Positions 4,246 through 41,782 of a stretch of DNA of 64,000 nucleotides are shown here, piece by piece. The stretch covers positions 1-64,000 of the forward strand of contig NZ_JAIQDJ010000007.1 in the NCBI RefSeq assembly GCF_020034655.1. The letters run 5' to 3'. Made by a program: the position numbers and the translations under genes. The notes under the pieces are model-generated. The model was not told the origin of the DNA and ran no database searches. It saw only the letters and a program-made list of their open reading frames with translations. The stretch's first letter is position 1, and each line of letters begins with the position of its first letter. This DNA comes from Thermomonas beijingensis (GTDB lineage Bacteria > Pseudomonadota > Gammaproteobacteria > Xanthomonadales > Xanthomonadaceae).

Positions 4246-4692
4246 TTAGTGCGATGACGCCAAATCATCGAGGATTGGGCAGCTGGGCCGATGGTCGCCA
4301 TGGCACTGTTTGGCCAACCGCTCCAGGGTGCGCTGCATGGCTTGCAGCTCGCTGATTTTTTCGGCCAATTCGGCAGCGTGGCTGCGCGCCAGTTGTTTGA
4401 CTTCGGCACTGGCGCGCTGCGGGTTGTCCCACAGTGCCAGCAGACTTTCGATTTGCTTGATCGAAAACCCCAGTGAACGGCCACGTTTGATGAAGCGCAG
4501 ACGGTGCACGTCGGCATCGTTGTAAAGACGATAGTTGGCGAAGGTGCGGCCGCTGGGTCGGGTCAGGCCGATGCTCTCATAATGGCGGATCATCTTGGCC
4601 GACACACCGGTCAACGCTGCGGCTTGGCCAATATTGTGCAAGCCCTGCTGCAAGGCATCGGCAAGCTCTGGTCGGGTGGGTTTATTGGTCAT
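4246..4692 (-). CDS. cueR: CueR, copper-responsive MerR-family activator
   Basis: A 148-residue MerR-type regulator. The helix-turn-helix reads NIGQAAALTGVSAKMIRHYE, followed by the wing and a long dimerisation helix; near the carboxy end two cysteines spaced by seven residues (CHGDHRPSC) form the Cu(I)-binding loop typical of CueR. The spacing and the adjacent copper genes separate it from MerR or ZntR relatives. It lies 24 bp downstream of the copA ATPase stop on the same strand, so it is probably co-transcribed with and autoregulated by copA's promoter. It would bind the two CueR boxes at 6947-6965 and 6984-7014. Confidence 0.92.
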   Translation of the reverse strand: MTNKPTRPELADALQQGLHNIGQAAALTGVSAKMIRHYESIGLTRPSGRTFANYRLYNDADVHRLRFIKRGRSLGFSIKQIESLLALWDNPQRASAEVKQLARSHAAELAEKISELQAMQRTLERLAKQCHGDHRPSCPILDDLASSH

Positions 4693-34624: not shown

Positions 34625-36421
34625 TCAGTGCGGCATCGCCAAATTACCTTCGGCCAGCGGCTTGCCCATGCGCGGCACGGTGTGGATCACCGCATCGATC
34701 GGCAACGCGGCCTTGCCATCTAGGTAAGCATCCACCCGATCCAGGGCGCTGTACACATACGGCAGCAATGGCAGATAGGCGGCGGCCATCGGCGGCAGGG
34801 CGAGGAAGGCATCGAAGTGCTGCGCATTGTCCACTTGCCAATAGCGCACGTCATTGCGGCCTGCGGCCTTGGCCATCGCCACATAAGGTGCGCTTGAAAA
34901 CGCTTGCGGCACCAGACCATCACTGCGGCCATGAATCACCACTACTGGCAGGCCTGCGCGGGGCAGTGTCGCACGGGTGTCGGCAATGCCTTTGCGCACA
35001 CGCTGCGCATCGGCACTGTCGCCGGTCCACAGATTGCGCAGGCATTGCATGCCGGTCAGGCCCATGTCGGTCATGGGCTGTGGATCGACAATGCCCACGC
35101 CCGCGCCTGGTGGAATGCCGGCGGCATCGGCCCACCACGCCGCACGCTCGGCCGCCGTGGCCGCACGCGGGCTGGTGTCGACGTTTTGCGCGGAATAGCG
35201 ATAGCCGCAAGGATGCGCATCGAAAGCATAACGCCCATAGGCCGAGGCGTAGCCCACGGCCACGGCGCGCCACAAATCGAAGGCAACCGAAATACTGCCC
35301 GCGCGCAGCGACGCATCGGTCCAGCCGGCGGCATGCAATTTCGCCAGTGCATCTTTCTGCTGCGCATCCAACGTATCGCCAGCCAACACACCTCGCATTT
35401 TCAATGCCGCGCATTTGGCGTCCAGTCCAGGCATTGCCGGAATGCCCAATTGCGGCAACACGCAAGGCATCAATAGCGCAGCTTCAGTGCTGTAGTCATA
35501 CAGACTGCGTGCGTCTGGCCCTTGTGCGTAAATATTGGGCTCGCCGGCAACCACCGCATCCAGCCACGGTTCGCTATCCTCGGCGGCACGCAGTACCGCG
35601 CCACCGCCGTTGGAGATGCCCACCGCAATCACGCGGGTGTTCTCGAAGGTAAATGGCGCTTGCTGCGGCAATTGCGCATTCAAGGTGGCCAGCGCAAATT
35701 GCGCAGCTTGCTTCACATGCCGGCCCCAATCGGCTTCCGGGTTGTCTTGCGAATGCGCATGTTTGTACGCCACACCGGAGCCACTAGCGGACGCAGGCTT
35801 GAATGCCAATGCGGTATTGCCATTGGCTGCCGCCACGCGGCCATCCAACGCGACTCCCTGCCCGGCATCCAGATCAAAATAATCGGTGCCATTGCCCTTG
35901 TCGGTATAGGCCACCGCGCAGCCACGCGGCAGGCCCCACGCGCCGGCCACCGCGATCGCCCCGTAAATGCCGCGCGAGCCGGACGATGCCGCCACCACCA
36001 CACAGCGTTTGCGTGGGTCGAACCCATCCGGCAATTGCAGCAGCACCCGATGCGGCTGCCTGGCACCGGCCAGCGTGGCCAAGGCACTGAATTCGCGCCC
36101 CGGGACCGTGGCCACGCTGCCATACAGCGTGGCGTAGCCACCGCCGGGAGCCAGATCGGCAATGCCGCGCCAGTTGCTCCACAGCGCACGCCGGCGCAGT
36201 TCGGCGGCGGTGGGGTGTTCGGCATCGCCAAAGGCGGGCGGAATGATCGACTGCAAACCCGCCAAGCCCAAGCCTCCGGTCAGCAAATCATCGGCATCAC
36301 GGTGTGTGGAGATGAGTGGCTGGCTGAACATGGAGGCACCCTTGTGGGAAGCAGGCAGACTGGCGCAGCCTGCCAACAGGGCAAGCGCACTGGCGAAGGC
36401 GCAATTACGGAAGATATTCAT
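34625..36421 (-). CDS. D-(-)-3-hydroxybutyrate oligomer hydrolase
   Basis: A 598-residue exported lipoprotein-like enzyme that splits 3-hydroxybutyrate oligomers into monomers. Signal and lipobox at the start (FASALALLAGC); an alpha/beta hydrolase domain with SSGSRGIYGAIAVAGAWGLP and the nucleophile region VIAVGISNGGGAVLRAAEDS; the carboxy half has the family's PVVVIHGRSDGLVPQAFSSA. It links extracellular or granule-derived polyester breakdown to the dehydrogenase encoded divergently 95 bp away. Confidence 0.9.
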   Translation of the reverse strand: MNIFRNCAFASALALLAGCASLPASHKGASMFSQPLISTHRDADDLLTGGLGLAGLQSIIPPAFGDAEHPTAAELRRRALWSNWRGIADLAPGGGYATLYGSVATVPGREFSALATLAGARQPHRVLLQLPDGFDPRKRCVVVAASSGSRGIYGAIAVAGAWGLPRGCAVAYTDKGNGTDYFDLDAGQGVALDGRVAAANGNTALAFKPASASGSGVAYKHAHSQDNPEADWGRHVKQAAQFALATLNAQLPQQAPFTFENTRVIAVGISNGGGAVLRAAEDSEPWLDAVVAGEPNIYAQGPDARSLYDYSTEAALLMPCVLPQLGIPAMPGLDAKCAALKMRGVLAGDTLDAQQKDALAKLHAAGWTDASLRAGSISVAFDLWRAVAVGYASAYGRYAFDAHPCGYRYSAQNVDTSPRAATAAERAAWWADAAGIPPGAGVGIVDPQPMTDMGLTGMQCLRNLWTGDSADAQRVRKGIADTRATLPRAGLPVVVIHGRSDGLVPQAFSSAPYVAMAKAAGRNDVRYWQVDNAQHFDAFLALPPMAAAYLPLLPYVYSALDRVDAYLDGKAALPIDAVIHTVPRMGKPLAEGNLAMPH

Positions 36422-36515
36422 GCCCTGACTCTAGCTGTAGCGGCAATGACGCGCATCGTACTTTGGTACCAACCCGGCGCAGCGTCTTCCTGTTAGCGTA
36501 TGGAAATGGGTTTGC

Positions 36516-37337
36516 ATGGGAATTTCGATGAACGATACATTCTTGAACGGGCGCACTGCACTGGTGACCGGCAGCACCTCGGGAATTGGCTTGGCGATTG
36601 CCAAAGCCCTGGCTGCCGCCGGTGCACAGGTGGCGATCAATGGCTTGGGCAGCGCCGAACAAATTGAACACGCCATTGTCGGCGTGAATGCTGCCGGCAG
36701 CGGGGGTGCCCGTCACTTCGGTGCAGACTTGCGCGATGCCAATGCCATCGAAGCCATGATGGCCGAGCTGGCCAACTGGAGCCGTGGCGGCGTTGATCTT
36801 CTGGTCAACAATGCCGGCATTCAGCATGCAGTGCCCTTGCACGAAATGCCGGTGGCGAAGTGGAACGACATCATCGCGATCAACCTGTCTTCGGCCTTCC
36901 ACACCATGCGTCTTGCGATGCCGGCGATGGCGCAGCGCGGGTTTGGCCGGGTTATCAATATTGCGTCGGTGCATGGTCTGGTGGCCTCGAAAGACAAGGC
37001 GCCGTATGTCGCCAGCAAATTCGGCATCGTCGGGATGAGCAAGGTCGCAGCGCTGGAGTATGCCGCACAGGGCAGCCGCGATTCGGGTGGCCTCACCGTC
37101 AACTGCATTTGCCCGGGCTGGGTGGAAACGCCATTGATCGAACCGCAGATTGAGGCCCGCATGCACGGTGGCAGCCGCGACGATGGCGTGCGTGCACTGC
37201 TGGCGGAAAAACAGCCCAGCCTGCGCATGAGCTTGCCCGAGGAAATCGCCAGCTTGGCGGTGTTCCTGTGCCGCCGCGAAGCGCACAACATCACCGGCAC
37301 GGCAATGCCGGTGGATGGGGGCTGGACGGCGCAATAA
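36516..37337 (+). CDS. bdhA: 3-hydroxybutyrate dehydrogenase
   Basis: A 273-residue short-chain dehydrogenase oxidising D-3-hydroxybutyrate to acetoacetate with NAD+. Cofactor motif TGSTSGIGLAIA; NNAGIQH; catalytic Ser in NIASVHGLVASKD and YVASK; closing GTAMPVDGGWTAQ. The VNNAGIQH and SVHGLVAS forms are characteristic of this enzyme rather than generic SDRs. A second ATG at 36528 is also possible. It precedes crbR by 3 bp and is divergent from the oligomer hydrolase. Confidence 0.92.
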   Translation: MGISMNDTFLNGRTALVTGSTSGIGLAIAKALAAAGAQVAINGLGSAEQIEHAIVGVNAAGSGGARHFGADLRDANAIEAMMAELANWSRGGVDLLVNNAGIQHAVPLHEMPVAKWNDIIAINLSSAFHTMRLAMPAMAQRGFGRVINIASVHGLVASKDKAPYVASKFGIVGMSKVAALEYAAQGSRDSGGLTVNCICPGWVETPLIEPQIEARMHGGSRDDGVRALLAEKQPSLRMSLPEEIASLAVFLCRREAHNITGTAMPVDGGWTAQ

Positions 37338-37340
37338 GCC

Positions 37341-38024
37341 ATGCCTTGCCTGCTGATTGCCGACGACCACCCGCTGTTTCGCGCCGCGCTCAAACAAGCG
37401 GCACGCGATGCACTGGGCGAAGTGGAGCTGTTCGAAGCCGGTCATTTGGATGCGGCACTTGCACTGCTGGACGCACAGCCACAGGTGGATCTGGTGCTGC
37501 TGGATCTGCATATGCCGGGCAATCACGGGCTGGCTGGCCTGGCCGCCATTCGTGCGCAATATCCCGGCGTGGCGGTGGTGGTGGTGTCAGCCAACGACGA
37601 TCCGCGCGTGGTGCGGCGCGCATTGGATCATGGCGCCGCCGGCTATCTGCCCAAGAGTGCGGGGCTGGAAGACTTGCGCGATGCCATTCGCAGCGTACTG
37701 GCCTGCGATACGTGGCTGCCCCCCGCCCTACGCGCCAGCGTGGCACGCGCAGCCTCTTCGCAGCACGATGCCGACCTTGCAGCGCGCTTGGCCAGTCTGT
37801 CGCCACAACAATTCCGTGTACTGGCATTGGTGGCGCAGGGCTTGCTCAACAAGCAAATCGCGGATCGTCTGGATGTGCAGGAACGCACCGTGAAAGCGCA
37901 CCTGACCGCCATCTTCGAACGCCTAGGCGTGCGTAACCGTACCCAAGCCAGCGTGGTGTTGCGTGAGCTGGAATTGAGTGACCCGGCGCGGTTGATCGAA
38001 GGCGACGTTGCGCTTTCGCGCTGA
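37341..38024 (+). CDS. crbR: CrbR-like LuxR/NarL response regulator
   Basis: A 227-residue two-component regulator: receiver with the phosphoacceptor Asp at residue 55 (LVLLDLHMPG), Lys of the active site in GYLPKSAG, then a LuxR-type helix-turn-helix (LSPQQFRVLALVAQGLLNKQ, ERTVKAHLTAIFERLGVRNR). The partner kinase gene with an SSF transporter domain (38435-41782) lies convergently after the DnaA-box region. CrbR relatives (also called ErdR) control acetyl-CoA synthetase and acetate use in Vibrio and Pseudomonas. The name is by analogy. Confidence 0.85.
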   Translation: MPCLLIADDHPLFRAALKQAARDALGEVELFEAGHLDAALALLDAQPQVDLVLLDLHMPGNHGLAGLAAIRAQYPGVAVVVVSANDDPRVVRRALDHGAAGYLPKSAGLEDLRDAIRSVLACDTWLPPALRASVARAASSQHDADLAARLASLSPQQFRVLALVAQGLLNKQIADRLDVQERTVKAHLTAIFERLGVRNRTQASVVLRELELSDPARLIEGDVALSR

Positions 38025-38066
38025 TGCACTGCGTACGAAAGTGCTGGTGATTTTTTGGCCACACAT

Positions 38067-38146
38067 CTTGACAGGCTCGCTGCACAAAGCGCTCCGGCAG
38101 TTATCCACATGATTGTTGAAGCGTCATCCACAAGCGCTGTGGAAAA
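38067..38146 (+). repeat. DnaA-box module 1
   Basis: CTTGACA at 38067; boxes TTATCCACA (38101-38109), TCATCCACA (38124-38132), inverted TGTGGAAAA (38138-38146). Gaps 14 and 5 bp. Confidence 0.75.
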
Positions 38147-38214
38147 CCACGATATGCCGCCGTGATGCAGGAAAAATATTTTTGAAATGTTGTGGCCATA
38201 TTTTCACCACACCA

Positions 38215-38294
38215 CTTGACAACCCTGCCACACAAGTCGCGCAGCGTGTTATCCACACGTTTATAGGGCAGTGATCCACAGCTGATGTGGACAA
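38215..38294 (+). repeat. DnaA-box module 2
   Basis: CTTGACA at 38215; boxes TTATCCACA (38249-38257), TGATCCACA (38272-38280), inverted TGTGGACAA (38286-38294). Gaps 14 and 5 bp. The whole module repeats the internal spacing of module 1, 148 bp further on. Confidence 0.75.
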
Positions 38295-38326
38295 GCGAAA
38301 CGATGCAATTCCACAAGCAAAACCAT

Positions 38327-38430
38327 CTTGAACAAAATTTCACCAATAGTCTGCAGGCCGCGCCACGCAATGCGCTTGGATGTTTATCCACACCCTTGTG
38401 CGGATGCTCATCCACAGTCTGTGTGGACAA
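38327..38430 (+). repeat. DnaA-box module 3
   Basis: CTTGAACA at 38327 (spaced differently); boxes TTATCCACA (38384-38392), TCATCCACA (38408-38416), inverted TGTGGACAA (38422-38430). Gaps 15 and 5 bp. Confidence 0.75.
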
Positions 38431-38434
38431 CCGC

Positions 38435-41400
38435 TCAGGGTGAATTGCGTGCAGCCAACATGCGATCAAGGATTGACTTCAGCGCCAATGGTCTGAGCGG
38501 TTTCATCAGCAAAGGCAAGCCTGCTTCTTGCGCGGCGGTACGCACTGCGCCGGTACGATCTGCGCTGAGAATCAGGCATGGAATGGACGCGTGCAATTCA
38601 CGTAATCGGTGATGCAACGACACCCCATCATCACCGTCATCCAGGTGGTAGTCGAAAATCCACAACGCGCATGGCTGCTGTGCCAGCGCACGCATTGCCG
38701 CTGCGCCGTTGCTTGCAGCAATCACTTCGCACCCCCAGCTTTGCAATACGCCGGCCAATGCATCCAATGCCGTAGCTTCATTGTCCACAATCAGCACGCG
38801 CAAGCCGGAAACCCCGCGCATGGGTGTGGTTCCAGGTTGTGCCGCTGCCGCTCGCGGCACGCTAAGGGCAAAACAACTGCCGCGCTGGACAATACTGACA
38901 AGCGACAACTCCGCACCCAGTAATCCCGCGATGCGTTTTGCAATCGCCAACCCCAAGCCAAGCCCCAGCCCGGGTGCTTGATCGCCACGCCGAAACTCCT
39001 CGAAAATCATTTCGCGCTGATCGGGCGCAATGCCGGGGCCACTATCGTGAACTTCAATCCGCAGCCCAAGCCCGCGCCGCCTAACCCCTAGCAACACGCG
39101 ACCACTGCTGGTGTAACGCAGCGCATTGGCAAGGAAGTTTTGCAATACGCGGTGCAACAGTTGCGGGTCGCTGTGCACCCACGCACGCGTGGCGACATAG
39201 TGCAGTTGCAGGCCGCGTTCTGCAGCCAATACCCGAAATTGGGCCACCAATGGATCCAACACTTCGCTCAATGGAAATATCCGCAACTCCGGAACCAAAC
39301 CACCGGCTTCCAGACGCGACATATCCAGCAATGTGCCAAGCAAGTCGGTGGTGGTGTCTAATGCACTACCGATATGCGCAGCCAGTTCGCGTTGCTCACC
39401 CACGCTGCGTTGTTGCAACGTGTCTGCAAACAAATGGGCCGCGTGCAACGGCTGCAACAGATCATGCCCAATCGCGGCCAAGAAGCGACTTTTGGCATCG
39501 TTGGCGTGCTCGGCTTCGCGTTTTGCGGTTTCCAGCAACGCGGTTCGCTCGATGACGCGCTGCTCCAGCGTTTCATTGCTGCGCTTGAGTTCGCTTTCCG
39601 TCTGTCGGAATGCGGTGACATCGGTGAAGGTGGCCACAAACCCGCCGCCGGGCATCGGGTTGCCGCGAATTTCAATGATGCTGCCATCGGGGAACACGCG
39701 CTCGGACAGGTGCGAAGTGCCGGCGCGCATATGCTCAAGGCGGCGCTGCAAGGCATCGTTGGCGCGCTCGAGGCCCGCCACTTCCCGCAACGCCCAGTTG
39801 GATGCCTCGGCGATTGGCATGCCTACCCGCAACATGCCGGATGGAAAGCCGAACAGTTCTGCGTAGCGGCGGTTCCACGCCACCAAATGCAACTGTGCAT
39901 CCACGACGCTGATGCCTTGGCTCATGTTTTCCAGCGCGGCCTCCAGCACGCGCTGGTTGAAGCGCAAATCTTCGCTGGCTTCACTGACGATATTGGCCAC
40001 GGTGTCGAGGTCTGCACCGGAGGCATCGCGGCGTGCCGCATCCAGCAACAAGCGCGCCGAGGCACTGCCCAGCACCGCTGCCAACTCATGCTCCAGACGT
40101 GATTCCTGCACTGCCGGTACCGGGCCGCTGGCCGGTGCACCTTGCAAGAGTTCCTCAACCCGTGCAGCAGGCAGAAAGCGACGCCCGGCATTGCGCAGGG
40201 TACGCACATCACTGCCGCGTGCATTTTGTTGACGGGTCGCGCCGTGCAGGTTGGCGGCTACCAAGGTGATGCCCGTGCCGACAAACAAACTGACGCCCAC
40301 CGCGCGTGCCAGCCGGCTCCACCCGGTCAAGCCGAACATCGCCTCGGGTGCCAGCCATGCCTGCCCGAACGGCCCGGCATGCAGCCAATCCGGATGGGCA
40401 CCCGCACTGGCCGTCAACAGCGGCACCAACATCACCCAGCACCACGCGGCAAACCCGGCCAGCACACCAAGACTGGCCGCTGGCCCCGGCGTCTGCGGCC
40501 GCCACAGTGCAAACGCCAGCGCTGGCATCAAGGTAGCCAAGGCCGAAAACGACACCGCGCCCACATCGGCCAATACCGCATTGCCGCTGACCAACCGGCT
40601 ATACGCCCAACCCGATAACATGATGGCAACAATGCCGAATCGTCGCAGCAGCAACAGGTCGCCACTGTGGTCACTGGCCTTGCCGCGTGCCCACGCACCA
40701 CGCAGCAGGCCGGGTGCAAACCAATGGTTGCCGATCATCAGGCTCAGCGTGAGCGTGCTGACAATCACCATGCCGGTCGCCGCACTCAAGCCCCCCAGAA
40801 ACACCAGCAAGGCCATGCCGGCGTGCCCCTGCACCATCGGTAGCGCCAAAGCGTACATATCGGTGGGAACGTGCTCCCCCAGCAGGGCCGCGCCGGCACG
40901 CGCCAGCGGCAAAGTGGGCAGCGCGATCAACAGCAGATACAGCGGAAACTGCCAACGCGCGGTGCGCACGTCCCGTTCGTCGCGGCATTCCACTACACCC
41001 ACATGGAATTGGTGCGGCATCAGGAACATCGCCAGTGCCCCCAAAATCACCAAAGGCATGAAGCCACCTGCGGACGATGATGGCGGCAAACGTGGCGCAC
41101 TGGGCAATGTGTGCAGGCCCAGCCACACAAACCCGCCCAGCGCCAGCATGACCAATAGTTTGAACAACGATTCGAATGCCAGTGCCAGCACCAACCCGCG
41201 GTTGTGCTCGGCCGCACTCACCCGGCGGGTGCCAAACATCATGGCGAACAAAGCCATTGCCAGCGCCACGTACAACGCACCATCCCGCCACAGCGGCGGT
41301 GCGCCATCATCGGCCGCACCGGTGCCCGCCGTCAGCGTGGTGAAGCTCATGGTGATCGCCTGCAGTTGCAGCGCGATGTAAGGGATCAACCCCAGCACTG

Positions 41401-41782
41401 TCACCAAGGTGACGATCGCGGCAAGCCATGCGTCTTTGCCTAAGCGCGTGGCAATGAGATCGGCCAGCGACGTCGCATTGGTTTGCCGCGCCAGCCGTAC
41501 CAGCCGTATCAAAAAGACAACCGCCAGCGCGTAGCACAGGATGGCGCCAATGAAAGTGGGCGGCAGTGGCCAGCCATAACGGGCCGCTTGGGTGACGGTG
41601 CCGTAGAACGTCCACGAGGTGCAATGCACCGCCAACGACAAGCCGTACACATGCCGCCAGTGCTTCGCAAACGCATCTGGATGGCGCTCGGCGTACAGAC
41701 CGGTGCCAAACAGCAGACCCAGCCACAGCAATGCAGCAGCAACGACAGCGGCGATACTCAGCATCGCCGCGCCTTCAGCCAT
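38435..41782 (-). CDS. crbS: CrbS-like hybrid histidine kinase with sodium:solute symporter domain
   Basis: A 1115-residue membrane kinase. The first 500 residues form a sodium/solute-symporter (SSF) domain with about 13 hydrophobic segments (HVYGLSLAVHCTSWTFYGTV near the start is typical). Then PAS (VLEAALENMSQGISVVDAQL), a coiled linker, HisKA with the phosphoacceptor His at about residue 773 (AAIGHDLLQPLHAAHLF), HATPase (VHDSGPGIAPDQ, GLGLGLAIAKRI) and a receiver with Asp near 1044 (LWIFDYHLDDG). This is the CrbS/MxtR architecture thought to sense acetate or a related metabolite. The start may be 41764, where AAGG precedes ATG. Partner regulator at 37341. Confidence 0.9.
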   Translation of the reverse strand: MAEGAAMLSIAAVVAAALLWLGLLFGTGLYAERHPDAFAKHWRHVYGLSLAVHCTSWTFYGTVTQAARYGWPLPPTFIGAILCYALAVVFLIRLVRLARQTNATSLADLIATRLGKDAWLAAIVTLVTVLGLIPYIALQLQAITMSFTTLTAGTGAADDGAPPLWRDGALYVALAMALFAMMFGTRRVSAAEHNRGLVLALAFESLFKLLVMLALGGFVWLGLHTLPSAPRLPPSSSAGGFMPLVILGALAMFLMPHQFHVGVVECRDERDVRTARWQFPLYLLLIALPTLPLARAGAALLGEHVPTDMYALALPMVQGHAGMALLVFLGGLSAATGMVIVSTLTLSLMIGNHWFAPGLLRGAWARGKASDHSGDLLLLRRFGIVAIMLSGWAYSRLVSGNAVLADVGAVSFSALATLMPALAFALWRPQTPGPAASLGVLAGFAAWCWVMLVPLLTASAGAHPDWLHAGPFGQAWLAPEAMFGLTGWSRLARAVGVSLFVGTGITLVAANLHGATRQQNARGSDVRTLRNAGRRFLPAARVEELLQGAPASGPVPAVQESRLEHELAAVLGSASARLLLDAARRDASGADLDTVANIVSEASEDLRFNQRVLEAALENMSQGISVVDAQLHLVAWNRRYAELFGFPSGMLRVGMPIAEASNWALREVAGLERANDALQRRLEHMRAGTSHLSERVFPDGSIIEIRGNPMPGGGFVATFTDVTAFRQTESELKRSNETLEQRVIERTALLETAKREAEHANDAKSRFLAAIGHDLLQPLHAAHLFADTLQQRSVGEQRELAAHIGSALDTTTDLLGTLLDMSRLEAGGLVPELRIFPLSEVLDPLVAQFRVLAAERGLQLHYVATRAWVHSDPQLLHRVLQNFLANALRYTSSGRVLLGVRRRGLGLRIEVHDSGPGIAPDQREMIFEEFRRGDQAPGLGLGLGLAIAKRIAGLLGAELSLVSIVQRGSCFALSVPRAAAAQPGTTPMRGVSGLRVLIVDNEATALDALAGVLQSWGCEVIAASNGAAAMRALAQQPCALWIFDYHLDDGDDGVSLHHRLRELHASIPCLILSADRTGAVRTAAQEAGLPLLMKPLRPLALKSILDRMLAARNSP

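Follow-up and report, generated by a model that had tools for sequence, protein, structure and literature searches.

A cluster of DnaA boxes in Thermomonas beijingensis is part of a larger repeated element, which we find in three copies in one intergenic gap, in further copies across the family and order, and, in a diverged single-copy form, beside the priA gene in most of the family. The sequences themselves show the element, how widely it occurs, how its parts are spaced and that it has a single-copy relative, and action like that of the DARS sites of Escherichia coli is the best-supported reading of what the element may do. More precisely, the array units and the priA-linked site would together make up an order-wide system of two classes of site that regulate DnaA in the manner of DARS, a proposal to which we give almost, though not quite, an even chance. 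The element may bear on how ADP-DnaA is recharged outside E. coli and its near relatives.

The window, by which we mean the whole stretch of 64,000 nucleotides that was analysed, contains the array in a gap between convergent genes at 38025-38434. The first-pass annotation of the window had described this gap as holding three modules, each consisting of an exact TTATCCACA box, a second direct box 14-15 bp later and an inverted box 5 bp after that, with a CTTGACA motif 34 bp ahead of the first two modules. All of these parts were found again. The gap is flanked by the stop codons of a response regulator gene and a hybrid histidine kinase gene; the second direct boxes follow the first boxes after 14, 14 and 15 bp, and the gap before the inverted box is 5 bp in each of the three modules. 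The nine boxes are part of three units of about 108 bp, spaced 148 and 135 bp apart, in which a palindrome precedes the boxes. The features are as follows.

37341-38024, plus strand: LuxR-type response regulator gene (Pfam Response_reg and GerE); the array starts directly past its stop codon
38042-38149, plus strand: unit 1 (match of unit model R1, G000:C7:38042-38149, E 6.7e-23)
Parts of unit 1: palindrome 38045-38061; CTTGACA 38067-38073; boxes 38101-38109 (plus), 38124-38132 (plus) and 38138-38146 (minus)
38191-38297, plus strand: unit 2 (match of unit model R1, G000:C7:38191-38297, E 1.7e-22)
Parts of unit 2: palindrome 38193-38209; CTTGACA 38215-38221; boxes 38249-38257 (plus), 38272-38280 (plus) and 38286-38294 (minus)
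38328-38434, plus strand: unit 3 (match of unit model R1, G000:C7:38328-38434, E 1.8e-17)
Parts of unit 3: degenerate palindrome 38329-38345; no CTTGACA; boxes 38384-38392 (plus), 38408-38416 (plus) and 38422-38430 (minus)
38435-41782, minus strand: hybrid histidine kinase gene (Pfam PAS_7, HisKA, HATPase_c and Response_reg), convergent with the response regulator gene

The palindrome of unit 2 lies within the AT-rich stretch flagged earlier. The window has 17 DnaA boxes when one mismatch is allowed, against a mean of 6.7 and a maximum of 16 in 100 shuffles, and its densest 400 bp hold nine box positions, where 40 dinucleotide shuffles gave one (33 shuffles) or two (seven shuffles). A scan of the genome for further clusters, as had been proposed, returned the module pattern at the three places of the array only, and a reversed-pattern control returned none. 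One more box with a single mismatch, TTGTCCACA, lies beyond the array within the histidine kinase gene (38781-38789).

To describe the unit beyond the window, we used a sequence-only model (R1) made from 26 of 32 units, the other six being near-identical copies (33 units had been collected and one was dropped). An alignment of units gives the order as a 17-bp palindrome (TGGnnAAWTTTTnnCCA), often a TTGACA, and then the boxes. We name the facing boxes I and II, box II being the second direct box, and in the window units the centre of the palindrome lies 71 bp before box II (positions by eye). Geometry was measured in 90 array-type units, comprising the 32 units and 58 of 90 model matches after duplicate, weak and reverse-strand rows were removed by hand. 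The facing boxes are 5 bp apart in all 90, with gaps of 3-7 bp allowed, although selection may account for part of this uniformity, as the units used to build the model had that gap; the model permits insertions and deletions. A palindrome was recognised in 88 of the 90 units, and its centre lies 69-72 bp before box II in every one of them (71 or 72 bp in 75). The strongest further box upstream of box II, counted when at least six of eight positions match, is 14 bp away in 61 of 88 units and 15 bp away in 15. By the same threshold no array unit (0/88) has a box 3 bp from box II, and 12 have one at 2 bp. Array units do show a weaker resemblance to a box 2-4 bp from box II, and by eye this weak site becomes more box-like, with a gap of 3 bp to box II, in genera g35 and g65. 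That DnaA binds the units is inferred from the box sequences. As for other proteins, the palindrome departs, on inspection by eye, from the Fis consensus given in PMC8682772, and TTGACA makes up no more than a portion of an IHF site.

Model matches (E at most 1e-4) occur in 224 of 296 family genomes and 40 of 54 genera, with one to ten per genome, and in 168 of 299 order genomes and 51 of 85 genera; for array-type units, 224 and 168 are upper figures, since lone weak matches may be the priA-linked site described below (about 20 bits). Among the matches listed, 70 of the 168 order genomes belong to a second family, f12, whose single locus read keeps the box part and has a degraded palindrome, and a further 28, from other families, have one or two weak matches apiece. 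The stricter module pattern was found at 24 places in 12 of 60 genomes, the window's own genome counted. Absence of conservation in relatives had been named as a result that would refute the proposal, and the outcome was mostly the opposite: the unit is widespread, although at the response regulator locus itself 13 of 24 same-genus genomes have no unit. The other 11 are the window's own genome and ten further ones, and the array also lies beside the response regulator in one genome of another genus (G034). The same-genus loci with units have one, two or three of them, and the usual distance between neighbours is 137-139 bp. Four same-genus genomes (G001, G006, G010 and G020) have no model match at E 1e-4, and arrays are therefore dispensable there.

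Grouping 40 loci by their flanking genes gave 13 groups, one of which was split by hand, hence about 14 distinct loci. Loci are common to several genera, and the gene partners vary from locus to locus. Some genera have one locus with several units, and others have several loci with one to three units each. One locus (L194, genome G086, 4461-4692) has two back-to-back units (67 and 39 bits) that point in opposite directions, whereas arrays elsewhere keep one orientation. The flanking genes are convergent in the window and, judged by eye from lists of open reading frames, at five loci in three other genomes. We considered strictly convergent gaps as a rule and dropped it after a rough codon-bias gene caller placed one locus group between divergent genes at six of seven loci. 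That caller missed the response regulator of the window and the dehydrogenase gene, and gave a negative gap in L164; because of these errors, little weight can be put on gene orientation and strictly intergenic position elsewhere.

A search for facing boxes revealed the second class of site. Of 149 family genomes, 133 have the perfect facing pair TTATCCACA-n5-TGTGGATAA exactly once and 16 lack it, and the reversed control gave none. In the window's own genome it lies on another contig.

G000:C9:7869-7889: priA-linked site, found by facing-box search (L057, L234)

At all 31 loci read (the window's own genome and 30 others) the pair adjoins priA, and in 30 of the 31 rows it lies about 111-199 bp ahead of the priA start, the other row being a partial alignment. 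Of the 31 rows, 30 have a third box, matching at 6-7 of nine positions, at 3 bp from box II, and the remaining one (L217) fits the 3-5 spacing when read in the proper direction. Read toward priA, the site also has a TGG...TTTTTTCGCCA-like stretch near the palindrome distance, the left half of which is often imperfect; TTGACA is absent from the site. The unit model, built without this site, gives it 20-21 bits in an alignment that includes the palindrome, whereas the boxes alone, read backwards, score 12-13 bits. By sequence, the priA-linked site is a diverged single-copy relative of the array unit. All five same-genus genomes searched carry it, among them G004 and G012, which have no units at the response regulator locus. 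The pair may also bear on control of priA by DnaA.

The two classes differ in chromosomal position. Of 39 single-contig genomes with dnaA located, one (G325) has no listed unit position, and in the remaining 38 complete genomes the listed array units lie 0.17-0.5 of the chromosome from oriC; the listing takes in matches down to E about 8e-8, so that weaker copies nearer oriC could be missing. The listed units thereby avoid the ori-proximal third of each replichore. By our own calculation, on listed matches only, the chance that 14 evenly placed loci would all miss the nearest third is about 0.0025. The priA-linked site lies 0.07-0.12 of the chromosome from oriC (seven complete genomes). The window's genome is in 60 contigs and its own array has no chromosomal placement; in four same-genus genomes that are complete or nearly so (G002, G009, G016 and G019) the array lies 0.39-0.47 from oriC.

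Like oriC, the array has several DnaA boxes with AT-rich DNA near, and it had earlier been suggested that it might be a displaced origin. We rejected this idea. The array does not lie beside dnaA or dnaN: dnaA is on contig C3, with boxes in the dnaA-dnaN gap, whereas the window is on C7. Moreover, the 14 dnaA loci read contain no unit and no palindrome. The origin is taken to be the dnaA-dnaN gap.

The earlier proposal of a titrating or reactivating locus fits the findings, and it is the second half, reactivation as in DARS, that is favoured by the geometry. Read from the MG1655 genome, E. coli DARS1 and DARS2 both have the order I-5-II-3-III. PMC5742627 likewise gives the two sites one shared spacing, with box I facing II and III. 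Boxes I and II hold ADP-DnaA head to head and thereby drive ADP release, and an interval of 2-3 bp favours head-to-tail cooperation (PMC8682772). The array units and the priA-linked site share the facing boxes 5 bp apart, and the priA-linked site has the full core spacing, III-3-II-5-I. In addition, array units are intergenic, and their palindrome at a fixed distance recalls the accessory sites of DARS2, which needs IHF and Fis sites at set, phase-dependent distances and has a core conserved in E. coli relatives (PMC4245941). E. coli DARS sites are not near oriC (PMC5742627); here the array units, with loci common to genera, lie at 0.17-0.5 and the priA-linked class lies at 0.07-0.12.

However, there are also differences from DARS. 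The strong third box of the array units is 14-15 bp from box II, about one helical turn beyond the DARS position. There are up to ten model matches per genome, and units form tandem arrays. A new palindrome replaces recognisable Fis and IHF sites, and the Fis-like and IHF-like sites of DARS2 lie at -130, -93 and -77, unlike the palindrome distance in the units. About 170 bp from the E. coli DARS2 core (L026) we noticed by eye a TTGG...CGCCAA stretch that resembles the palindrome, at another distance. Because the array units depart from one of the features that define DARS, several relatives lack the arrays, and titration is possible, we limit the claim to an element that would work like DARS, as the best-supported reading, and do not call the window array DARS. 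In the literature searched, which included few subscription papers and some sources only in part, no DARS-like element is reported for the Lysobacterales/Xanthomonadales, and that search returned no paper pairing the term DnaA-reactivating with Xanthomonas.

Under the DARS-like reading, ADP-DnaA arising from Hda-dependent inactivation would dock head to head on boxes I and II, the DnaA complex would be shaped with the help of a palindrome-binding protein, and ADP would be released, which would leave DnaA free to take up ATP again before the next initiation. In each replication cycle the priA copy would be duplicated early and the ori-distal copies late. The window's genome encodes Hda (231 bits, against a cut-off of 195), and ADP-DnaA should therefore be made there and need recharging. 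A fuller version of this reading can be entertained only tentatively, as one that could well be wrong: outside the near relatives of E. coli, one ori-proximal copy with the canonical core ahead of priA and several ori-distal copies built on the new palindrome may form an order-wide, two-class system for recharging DnaA; the number and position of the ori-distal copies may tune the timing of initiation in each lineage, and the palindrome may be bound by a new protein. If the element is DARS-like, its varied copy number and position across the order would offer a natural comparison of DARS dosage and position. The element also points to a partner protein at the palindrome, and to a once-per-genome site beside priA in most of the family.

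The main alternative is that the units hold DnaA off oriC, or promote hydrolysis of its ATP as datA does, and so delay re-initiation. Each unit has at least three boxes and genomes have several units, which would suit titration, as the box sequences alone would. Clusters of DnaA boxes are known to reduce the amount of free DnaA (PMC12371093), and the ori-proximal priA-linked class suits titration better than it suits recharging. On the other hand, that paper says that titration profits from ori-proximal boxes, and the listed array units lie far from oriC. The datA locus, by contrast, is close to oriC; it is single and requires boxes 2, 3 and 7 plus an IHF site (PMC5742627). Although datA is likewise an intergenic cluster of DnaA boxes, and the priA-linked class is near oriC too, the sole facing pair that we found in datA is 3 bp apart rather than 5 bp. 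The strict gap and the palindrome at a fixed distance also exceed what simple titration needs. We regard this alternative as unlikely, though with a real chance of being right. Local control of transcription, for example of priA by DnaA, would agree with the position of the priA-linked site shortly before the priA start and with the locus group called between divergent genes; yet the window array lies where two convergent genes end, and the neighbouring genes are not the same from locus to locus. A neutral dispersed repeat with no role in replication hardly suits the low copy number, the loci common to genera and the fixed spacing. Either of these, taken together as one alternative, appears improbable.

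Two further explanations have smaller chances still. The A-site of the ABC-primosome is a hairpin model for DnaA-dependent helicase loading, and by analogy the facing boxes could form a single-stranded hairpin through which DnaA loads helicase for restart or lagging-strand synthesis. The pair could fold as a stem with a 5-nt loop, and its neighbour priA is a restart helicase gene. However, the stem has 6 bp in most array units (9 bp in the priA-linked site), RNAalifold gave a covariation term of 0.1 with compensatory change in one of ten predicted pairs, and DARS geometry explains the facing pair equally well. The hairpin is the least probable of the explanations considered. A structured RNA was also rejected, given that same lack of compensation and a sole Rfam match (mir-652, at 18 bits where the gathering score is 73) that we put down to chance. 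Nor did we take the palindrome for a hairpin: its halves agree at 101 of 176 inner pairs, against a shuffle mean of 88, and 33 of 2000 shuffles reach that value, a slight excess.

The remaining explanation is a polar barrier to replication forks around the terminus, of the Ter kind. As in the Tus-Ter system the copies are few, lie in the dif half of the chromosome and, in genus g7, share a single orientation. A dif-like site was found in 21 of the 39 single-contig genomes and, with a looser pattern, in 14 more. All listed units of the 11 g7 genomes are oriented against the moving fork, whichever side of dif they lie on, at six of six distinct loci, and over all listed units of at least 50 bits 76 follow this polarity and nine go against it. 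However, these units are related by descent, and by distinct locus (a hand tally, as is the count of 14 loci itself) ten follow the polarity and four do not. A strong array locus shared by several genera is mostly in the opposite orientation, and placing dif shows one of two loci in g11 and g36 to depart from the polarity. Unlike Ter, the element is also made of DnaA boxes. A polar fork trap as a general rule was attractive in g7 and was dropped after loci were grouped and more dif-like sites placed, and as an account of the element a fork barrier now seems very improbable. The uniform orientation against forks in g7 (for example G178, G196, G275, G305 and G323) stands alone, as other genera break the pattern.

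Ahead of the response regulator gene, 34625-37337 encodes a 3-hydroxybutyrate-oligomer hydrolase (Pfam 3HBOH) and also a 3-hydroxybutyrate dehydrogenase. The nearest NCBIfam model to the response regulator is ErdR (228 bits, under the cut-off of 390), and that to the histidine kinase is the NahK/ErcS family (364 bits, under the cut-off of 400). The 3-hydroxybutyrate genes and the regulators suggest a polyhydroxybutyrate cluster controlled by a two-component system. In a genome of another genus (G030, locus L014), units sit behind a similar short-chain dehydrogenase gene.
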